A stretch of DNA of 37,861 nt from Campylobacteraceae bacterium (GTDB lineage: Bacteria; Campylobacterota; Campylobacteria; Campylobacterales; Sulfurovaceae), in assembly GCA_027068975.1 (NCBI GenBank), contig JALXFN010000136.1, positions 1-37,861 on the forward strand. Reading direction: 5' to 3'. Positions 3,543 through 14,346 of the stretch are shown piece after piece (within the stretch, counting starts at the first letter, position 1; every line of letters starts with the position of its first letter). The notes beneath the pieces are model-generated. The model did not search any database. It was given only the letters and a program-made list of their open reading frames with translations, and was not told the DNA's origin. Made by a program: the position numbers and the translations under genes.

Positions 3543-4256
3543 ATGGCAAAGAAAGTAAATAAAAAAAGAGCAGCACTCTTAGAAAAAATAGAAACAGAGA
3601 AAAAGTATTCAGTTGAAGAAGCTACTGCACTTCTTCCAACTCTAAAATCAGCGAAGTTTGATGAAACTGTTGAAATTGCATTAAATTTAAATGTTGACCC
3701 AAGACATGCAGACCAGATGCTTAGAGGTTCAGTTGTTCTTCCTAATGGGACAGGTAAAGTTGTAAGAGTGGCAGTATTTGCAAAAGATGATAAAGCAGAT
3801 GAAGCTAAAGCAGCAGGGGCTGATTTGGTTGGTTCAGATGATTTAATTGATGCAATAAAAGAAGGTAATATTGATTTTGATACCGTTATAGCAACTCCAA
3901 ATATGATGGGAACACTTGGTAAAGTAGCTAGAATCTTGGGTCCAAAAGGTTTAATGCCTAACCCTAAAACTGGTACTGTTACTATGGATGTAGCAAAAGC
4001 AGTTACTGAAGCTAAAGGTGGTAAAGTTAATTTTAGAACAGATAAAAAAGGGAATATCCATGCTGGAATTGGTAAAGTCTCTTTTGGTGCTGAAAAAATT
4101 AAAGAAAATTTAGAGACTTTTGTACAAACAATTAACAAAGTTAAACCAGCTTCTGCAAAAGGTAGATATATCCTTAATGGAGCATTGTCTTTAACTATGA
4201 GTCCTGCTGTAACCCTTGATACCACTGAACTTTTAGATATGAAAGCAAAAGCTTAA
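3543..4256 (+). CDS. rplA: 50S ribosomal protein L1
   Basis: L1 builds the L1 stalk that handles E-site tRNA and is the usual autorepressor of the L11-L1 transcript. The 237-aa protein carries family motifs: [12 protein letters not shown], the central [15 protein letters not shown], and a C-terminal [19 protein letters not shown]-like segment (here beginning SAKGRYI). The ATG is preceded by GGAGAG. The long open frame on the opposite strand (3524-4225) is a codon-bias shadow of this gene. A striking 34-bp hairpin starts 16 bases after the stop. Confidence 0.98.
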
Positions 4257-4271
4257 GAGCCTAAAGCTTAG

Positions 4272-4347
4272 GATATAGATATAGGGGTCAGGTGAACGTA
4301 ATCATGCTATGTATGATTACGTTCACCTGACCCCTATATCTCATATC
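4272..4347. repeat. Long near-perfect palindrome (REP/MITE-like) between rplA and rplJ
   Basis: The 28 bases at 4278-4305 (starting GATATAGGGGTCAGGTGAAC) are the exact reverse complement of 4313-4340, with a 7-nt loop GCTATGT. After one more A-T pair and a one-base bulge (C4342), GATAT (4272-4276) pairs with ATATC (4343-4347), making a 34-bp stem. The ends carry TAGGGGTCAGGT, the sort of G-rich conserved end seen in REP palindromes mobilised by IS200-like (RAYT) transposases; that link is inference. There is no transposase gene here, so if mobile it is a passenger element. In RNA it would form a very stable hairpin in the rplA-rplJ transcript. Confidence 0.75.
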
Positions 4348-4388
4348 TTTTCCTTTATGCTTGGCATAAAATGATTTTAGGCTGAAGA

Positions 4389-4453
4389 TAATAGGGGCGA
4401 AAGCTTAATTAATATATTCGAAAGGATATATGTGTCAAATGGACACCCTATTA
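4389..4453 (+). promoter_or_regulatory. Structured rplJL leader (candidate L10 autoregulatory leader)
   Basis: Three nested helices are visible: a closing stem TAATAGG (4389-4395) with CCTATTA (4447-4453); an 8-bp hairpin (4412-4419 with 4424-4431, one G-T pair) capped by a GAAA tetraloop; and GTGTC (4432-4436) with GACAC (4442-4446). A branched leader of this kind directly before rplJ matches the position of the L10(L12)4-binding leader (Rfam L10_leader), the autorepression target of rplJL. The identity rests on position and structure; the kink-turn was not modelled. Confidence 0.6.
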
Positions 4454-4472
4454 GAAGTCGAAAGGAGAACAA

Positions 4473-4958
4473 ATGACTAGAACTGAAAAAGAAGCTATTG
4501 TTAATGAACTGTCAACTGCTTTTGCTAATCAGGGTGCTGTAATCGTATGTGATTATAAAGGTATGACTGTTGAAGCATTAGAAGGTGTTCGTAACATGGC
4601 TAAAGAGAATGATGTTAATGTTCGAGTAGTTAAAAACACACTTGCAACTATTGCACTTAAAAATGCAAACTGTGAAGAGTTAGAACTACTTGACAACAAT
4701 ATTTTTATTTGGGGTGAAGATCAGATTGCTACTTGTAAAGTGGCTGATAAATCTGCAGAAGCAAATAAAAATCATTTCTCAATCAAGTCTGGAGTAATTG
4801 AGTCTAAAGTTGCAGATATCGCTACGATTAATGCTATGGCTAAACTTCCAGGTAGAGATGAACTTCTTGGTATGCTACTTAATGTTTGGAATGCACCAGT
4901 GCAGAACTTTACAATAGGTATGAGTGCACTTGCTACTAAACTAGAAGAAGAAGCATAG
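4473..4958 (+). CDS. rplJ: 50S ribosomal protein L10
   Basis: L10 anchors the L7/L12 dimers on the ribosome and represses its own operon with them. The 161-aa protein starts MTRTEKEAIVNELSTAF, has the conserved DYKGMTVEALEGVR and VRVVKNTLATIAL segments, and ends in the C-terminal helix that binds L12 dimers (GMLLNVWNAPVQNFTIGMS and the acidic LEEEA tail). A strong Shine-Dalgarno AAAGGAGAA precedes the ATG. rplL follows after 80 nt. Confidence 0.97.
   Translation: MTRTEKEAIVNELSTAFANQGAVIVCDYKGMTVEALEGVRNMAKENDVNVRVVKNTLATIALKNANCEELELLDNNIFIWGEDQIATCKVADKSAEANKNHFSIKSGVIESKVADIATINAMAKLPGRDELLGMLLNVWNAPVQNFTIGMSALATKLEEEA

Positions 4959-5638: not shown

Positions 5639-14346
<8,708 letters not shown>

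Follow-up and report, generated by a model that had tools for sequence, protein, structure and literature searches.

A putative transposase-end dimer in the loop of an apparently native hairpin between rplA and rplJ of a Sulfurovum-like bacterium

The window, a stretch of 37,861 nucleotides from a Sulfurovum-like bacterium whose genome is coded G000 here, carries rplA (ribosomal protein L1) at positions 3543 to 4256 of the forward strand, with its stop codon at 4254-4256, and rplJ (ribosomal protein L10) at 4473 to 4958 of the same strand. The first gene was assigned from its open reading frame and context, the second from its frame and from orthologues in 77 of 80 relatives. Two structured elements occupy the spacer. 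The stem of a long hairpin begins 13 bases past the rplA stop, and the end of the hairpin lies about 120 bases ahead of rplJ. It is followed by a structured rplJ (L10) leader (4377 to 4472, forward strand), recognised in the spacer comparison by position and conservation only. In Rfam no L10 leader family matched it, and a preQ1-II model on the leader remained sub-threshold.

A repeat search of the window identified the hairpin as a perfect inverted repeat, with 29-bp arms (4277-4305 and 4313-4341) that are 100% complementary around a 7-nt loop. In the RNA fold the stem extends to 4270-4307 and 4311-4349 with a single bulged base at 4342. The minimum free energy is -63.5 kcal/mol, compared with -17.9 ± 2.9 for shuffled sequences (z -15.8; none of 200 shuffles was as stable). 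The runner-up inverted repeat in the window is 26 nt at 81%, which leaves the rplA-rplJ hairpin the best by far, and GGGGTCAGGT, allowing at most one mismatch, occurs in the window only twice, exactly as the two arms. A first-pass annotation had described perfect arms, a 7-nt loop and the most stable structure of the window in this spacer, and these descriptions are borne out by the fold, the repeat search and the gene boundaries; the arm length given there, 28 bp, differs slightly from the 29 bp measured. Rfam matches to microRNA precursors were sub-threshold, as expected of any long perfect hairpin, and were rejected.

The stem is composite. A 21-bp sequence, AGGGGTCAGGTGAACGTAATC, lies at 4283 to 4303 on the forward strand and again, inverted (GATTACGTTCACCTGACCCCT), at 4315 to 4335 on the reverse strand. 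Between the copies the middle segment ATGCTATGTAT (4304 to 4314) holds the loop and two more pairs common to both arms. The same 21-bp sequence is found on another contig of this genome, C11, at 9587-9607, 10418-10438 and 10492-10512 (L009 2588, 3419 and 3493), where it stands as inverted repeats on two sides of a Y1 transposase gene. That gene, one of six Y1 genes in G000, is an intact 255-aa IS200-like frame. It matches Pfam Y1_Tnp (PF01797) at 2e-17 and NCBIfam REP_Tyr_transpos at 9e-20, the latter below its cutoff, and it has the HuH motif NHYH as well as YIEQNP. Several helix-turn-helix models fall on residues ~221-255, every one of them below cutoff. Comparison of the 61-bp hairpin with its own genome gave a single complete copy, strong single ends at three places on C11 and one decayed end on C95; the full dimer occurs once. 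The first-pass annotation had proposed looking in the genome for an IS200-like or RAYT transposase gene and for further copies of the arm. The gene exists, on C11, flanked by the arm's 21-bp end, and the arm recurs as single ends on C11 and C95, not as a second full dimer.

On this identity the core of the window hairpin is a head-to-head dimer of 21-bp TIRYT ends. A mobile origin of the palindrome is supported because the arm sequence coincides with the inverted repeats of a Y1 transposase gene in the same genome; a transposase of this type presumably inserted the dimer. The terminal inverted repeat (TIR) is also present in relatives. Orthologous transposase genes have the same TIR in G011, G014 and G024 and diverged ends in G019 and G059, and related TIR dimers occur at scattered other places in G003, G011, G021 and G030. 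Left and right transposon ends differ by 1 to 3 bases, too little to separate left-right from same-end fusions in the dimers. Among named genomes, matches to the exact 20-mer come almost exclusively from Campylobacterota, one of them the assembly of Sulfurovum sp. UBA1140. The single 21-bp repeat has no fold of its own (0 kcal/mol) and lacks a GTAG head, and since the monomer does not fold the repeat is not a REP. GGGGTCAG conforms to the motif GGGGWSAS. The REP/RAYT- or MITE-type origin first suggested is supported as to mobility and the Y1 link but not as to REP, the repeat being of TIRYT type with a non-palindromic TIR.

Other repeats accompany Y1 genes in G000. The C11 and C95 transposase ends (L009 2519-2590; L010 ~1370-1410) adjoin degenerate short tandem repeats, for example CAGTCAAGCAGTC and CTAGACTGCTAGACTG, and dimers in G011 and G021 have comparable low-complexity flanks (AATTTAGG, TTAGCCC). 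A second TIRYT of G000 has a different 20-bp inverted repeat, AAGGGTCAGACGTTGAATAT, at 1075 and 1919 of L014 (G000:C34). Two more Y1 genes, in L015 (G000:C101) and L017 (G000:C6), are flanked by self-complementary REP-like inverted repeats (CATGGACTAAAGTCCATGCTCC and CGGTGTAGACGGGGTCTACACCCTAC).

The stem outside the dimer (5' half 4270 to 4282, 3' half 4336 to 4349, both on the forward strand, with the bulge at 4342 and a T-rich stretch after it) is that of the native hairpin. The rplA-rplJ spacers of 30 readable genomes of the genus and of 19 other members of the family or order were compared; the genomes are mostly metagenome assemblies and the sampling is at species level. A homologous frame, AGCTTAG...TTTATGCT, opens the spacer as a hairpin in 25 of the 30 genus genomes, and some species are without it. 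In eight species (G009, G019, G015, G017, G006, G027, G028 and G030) the loop is short, as with GGGTACAAATAATTTATTTGTACC in G009. The loops of the others have varied contents. A GTGAACGTAATC dimer is found in G000, G011 and G021, a GGGGTCAGGTGATAACGATAGC dimer in G003, and dimers with TTTAA or CTTAAG centres in G004, G007, G026, G032, G033, G013 and G014. Decayed dimers are present in G022 and G025 and a degenerate one in G010. The same loop holds a GTAG-type REP in G024 (22 genomic copies) and in G029, and a REPIN-like element in G002, whose genome has 31 exact copies of the motif; both families are repeats of mobile type. Family and order members outside the genus have ordinary spacer hairpins and none of these repeats.

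The last small hairpin of the leader (GTGTCAAATGGACAC in the window), just before the rplJ ribosome-binding site, is a second landing site. It is empty here, and its loop has GGGGTCAG dimers, some decayed, in G032, G033, G013, G014, G010, G028 and G030. G010 and G013 each have one dimer nested inside another. A third dimer of G013 lies in a terminator-like hairpin that immediately precedes a tRNA gene of the same cluster, ~2.4 kb before rplJ. Outside these loops no dimers were found in the rest of the rplA-rplJ spacers compared. Parsimony on the gene tree gives about 12 state changes at the first site and 4 at the second, but the count of independent insertions is uncertain because the spacers recombine. 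The most frequent dimer core in this spacer is GGGGTCAGGTTTAAACCTGACCCC. A pattern search of 34 genomes for a transposase end matching the GGGGTCAGGTTTAAA dimer returned, besides dimers, only one stray half-site (G000:C84); with no matching transposase end in the genus genomes searched, a TIRYT origin of the GGGGTCAGGTTTAAACCTGACCCC core is argued solely from the shared GGGGTCAG motif. G029 has 84 exact copies of the GAGGCTAAAGCC REPIN-like motif. One copy (G029:C427:12640-12655, L059) lies just downstream of rplJ, so in that genome the rplJ-rplL side has been invaded too.

Judged from these spacers, the loop that holds the palindrome is that of a native hairpin whose position is conserved across the genus. 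The choice between a mobile and a native element is then a false one, since both apply, and the first-pass annotation, which had set a native operon element against an insertion, does not hold on this point: a mobile TIR dimer lies inside a native frame found in 25 of 30 spacers. That annotation had proposed comparing the spacer in sister strains for an empty site; in the comparison made here, at species level, eight related species have short-loop hairpins. A purely native hairpin, evolving rapidly as an operon element, would fit the conserved position and the single full dimer in G000, and its likeness to a transposase end would then be a coincidence or the trace of a transposon that had captured the hairpin. 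This is highly improbable: the inverted repeats of a transposase gene of this genome match exactly over 21 bp, orthologous transposase genes of other species have identical ends, and related species have short loops. A simple conserved native element was likewise rejected.

The dimers are not spread evenly over the genomes. In 34 genus genomes the exact pattern GGGGTCAG-N(0-30)-CTGACCCC was found at 10 sites: 8 in the 0.2-kb rplA-rplJ spacer, and one more within the cluster, in a hairpin that immediately precedes a tRNA gene. Across 399 sampled genomes of the order, only a few of them from the genus, the pattern occurs 6 times and never in this spacer. Pairing of the flanks shows a similar bias. 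The sequences flanking the dimer core form a median of 10 contiguous pairs in 19 cluster dimers, compared with 1 in 16 dimers elsewhere (genus plus order) and a mean of 1.5 when mismatched flanks were cross-paired as a null. Mann-Whitney tests on pairs of 12 gave 2e-5 for cluster dimers against those elsewhere and 5e-11 against the null; the 19 are partly interdependent, since some are shared by descent between sister species and the spacers recombine. Since flank pairing separates the cluster from other places, loop position is a property of the locus and not of the dimer family. In another genus a GGGGTCAG dimer (L157 870-903, G155:C189) adjoins a further pair of ribosomal-protein genes, rplU-rpmA, before obg.

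With a loop position specific to one locus, tolerance or selection at the site is more plausible than a general preference of the transposase for loops, although a local preference may exist; we infer that selection accounts for the loop positions. Targeting would offer a different cause: the Y1 transposase may prefer single-stranded hairpin loops exposed in a heavily transcribed operon. Loops of this cluster hold several dimers, nested dimers (in G010 and G013) and REP families that are unrelated, which could be read in that way, as could the REP dimers within palindromes of three other species in the available text of De Nocera et al. (2013, PMC3733652). However, members of this dimer family at other places in genomes of the genus and order lie outside hairpins, with a median of 1 flanking pair, as in the null. 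The unrelated REP families in the same loop have other transposases, and so indicate the site and not the enzyme. Targeting is accordingly considered rather unlikely.

Changes within the stem also bear on tolerance and selection. In four related hairpins (G007, G026, G032 and G033; 89 aligned columns), 10 of 38 pairs have been altered on both sides with pairing kept, and none of the 10 lies within the dimer core, all being in the outer stem. A T-A pair adjoining the dimer has given way to G-C between G000 and G011. The simplest cause of such compensatory changes is selection on a hairpin, whether of RNA or of DNA; templated (quasi-palindrome) correction between the arms is an alternative that could yield them without selection. 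A neutral account, with a hairpin that has no RNA function and loop insertions that are simply those still visible as perfect stems, would accommodate the eight species with only a short hairpin and those without the frame. It is unlikely in view of the 10 pairs changed on both sides and the lack of dimers in the rest of the spacer.

How the dimer came to be in G000 is indicated by the surrounding sequence. In the gene tree G000 groups with its sister species G032 and G033. Between 3980 and 4457 (~480 bp, the 3' end of rplA and the spacer), however, informative sites, windowed identity and trees mark a recombinant tract that resembles G011 and G021 in a background like G032 and G033. There, informative sites divide 64 to 7 in favour of G011/G021 over G032/G033 (permutation p about 1e-4). 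In the spacer, windowed identity to G032/G033 falls to 72-75% and that to G011/G021 rises to 91-96%; the relation is reversed in rplJ. Trees of the two sides agree, placing G000 with G032/G033 for rplJ-rplL and nearest G011 for rplA. The same dimer is at the same place in G011 and G021, and the arms of the window dimer run on as AATCAT, as does the transposase right end of G011 and G014, whereas the C11 ends run on as AATCGC, AATCGT or AATCAC. The hairpin therefore most likely came in by homologous recombination, with a spacer in which the dimer was already present, and was not inserted here, since the ~480-bp tract matches G011/G021 and both flanks match G032/G033. A fresh local insertion by the TIRYT on C11 could account for the identical TIRs, and that transposase has an intact frame of 255 aa. 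It is improbable: G011 and G021 have the same dimer in the same place, the G000 dimer lies inside the tract that resembles theirs, and the arms continue unlike the C11 ends. A simple fresh insertion was rejected.

Taken as a whole, we consider the following account likely. A native intercistronic hairpin, 13 bases past the rplA stop codon and ahead of the L10 leader, would have received in its loop, in a lineage like G011/G021, a TIR dimer of a TIRYT with an IS200-like Y1 transposase of the subclass 2.1 kind. Insertion in the loop would have extended the short hairpin to a stem of ~38 bp, and the tract bearing the dimer would later have replaced the resident spacer of G000 by homologous recombination. 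Mobile palindromes have entered the spacer repeatedly, and those that persist lie in the loop either of the rplA hairpin or of the final L10-leader hairpin; persistence is proposed to follow from the fact that inserts in a loop lengthen the stem and keep the fold, so that loop insertions would survive by preserving a needed intercistronic hairpin. The last component of the account is a separation of messages at the RNA level. The TIR identity, dimer structure, native frame, recurrent loop insertions, recombination tract and compensatory changes in related hairpins are all read from sequence comparison.

As for that RNA role, the stem is followed by TTTTCCTTT, and the terminator scan did not list the rplA-rplJ hairpin. 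Its placement close to the rplA stop, with a T-rich stretch after it and the L10 leader next, suits a partial terminator, a processing site or protection of the rplKA message end. Most likely the hairpin would separate the rplKA from the rplJL messages, as a partial intrinsic terminator, as a processing or end-protection site for RNase III or RNase E, or as both. More tentatively, and with less than even confidence, the loop may be, throughout this genus, a repeatedly used landing pad in which unrelated mobile palindromes are captured, kept paired and exchanged among species by spacer recombination, tuning the split between rplKA and rplJL. The MITE hairpin NEMIS is cleaved by RNase III. NEMIS, ERIC and YPAL are bacterial MITE hairpins in messenger RNAs, according to the available portions of De Nocera et al. 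(2013, PMC3733652), and the hairpin described here is likewise transposon-derived, in a predicted transcript whose processing it could alter. Unlike those in that account, it is known from sequence alone, and the host hairpin appears to predate the insert.

Two classes of mobile repeat resemble the dimer. TIRtrons, or TIRYTs, form a terminal inverted repeat class with the motif GGGGWSAS (De Nocera et al. 2013, PMC3733652), and they belong mostly to TnpA_Y1 subclass 2.1, which is prevalent in epsilon-proteobacteria (Quentin et al. 2018, PMC6006769), as far as the available parts of both papers go. In those parts the class shares with the present elements a Y1 HuH transposase, inverted repeats with GGGGWSAS (here GGGGTCAG) and repeats that also occur as dimers. 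TIRYTs are described there with a C-terminal tail resembling a helix-turn-helix, which in the C11 protein corresponds to models at ~221-255 that are all below cutoff. In contrast to TIRYTs as described in the same parts, the dimers here cluster in one ribosomal-protein operon, in native hairpin loops. REPINs and RAYTs (Bertels and Rainey 2011, PMC3116915; Nunvar et al. 2010, PMC2817692) are similar in being short, non-autonomous palindromic dimers tied to a Y1 transposase. They differ in that the monomer here is unfolded and without a GTAG/GGAG head, and in that copy number is low (one full dimer in G000).

Nesting of a mobile palindrome inside another palindrome has a parallel in the REP dimers of A. 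variabilis (GTAG-15), T. roseum (GTAG-23) and H. neapolitanus (CGTC-1), which lie within palindromes in the available text of De Nocera et al. (2013, PMC3733652). The pairings given there, however, recur throughout a single genome; in the present case an orthologous intercistronic hairpin forms the outer palindrome, and the inner palindrome varies by species. A literature search found no papers on preferential insertion into terminator stem-loops or on MITE hairpins in ribosomal operons. The spacers form a natural series: across more than 20 species, a single hairpin between genes of an essential operon either has stayed short or has been rebuilt from varying mobile palindromes. Such a series makes it directly testable whether transposon palindromes are just tolerated or have become RNA control elements by adoption. 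Recombination of a spacer between conserved genes can also spread a short element of transposon origin, so a hairpin that looks mobile need not be a local insertion.

The TIR is found in other settings as well. In L134 (1049-1110, G028:C198) a tandem array of TIRs, with CTCTA before each, lies beside a partial Y1 transposase gene, and one further TIR (GGGGTCAGACGTTGAATAT) is present on the 3' side. In three SZUA metagenome assemblies (L167, L170, L175, L177, L178 and L183) the TIR is ~55-85 bases from the contig end, suggesting that repeated TIR elements break these assemblies. One of these bins is labelled Crocinitomix, possibly a binning error.
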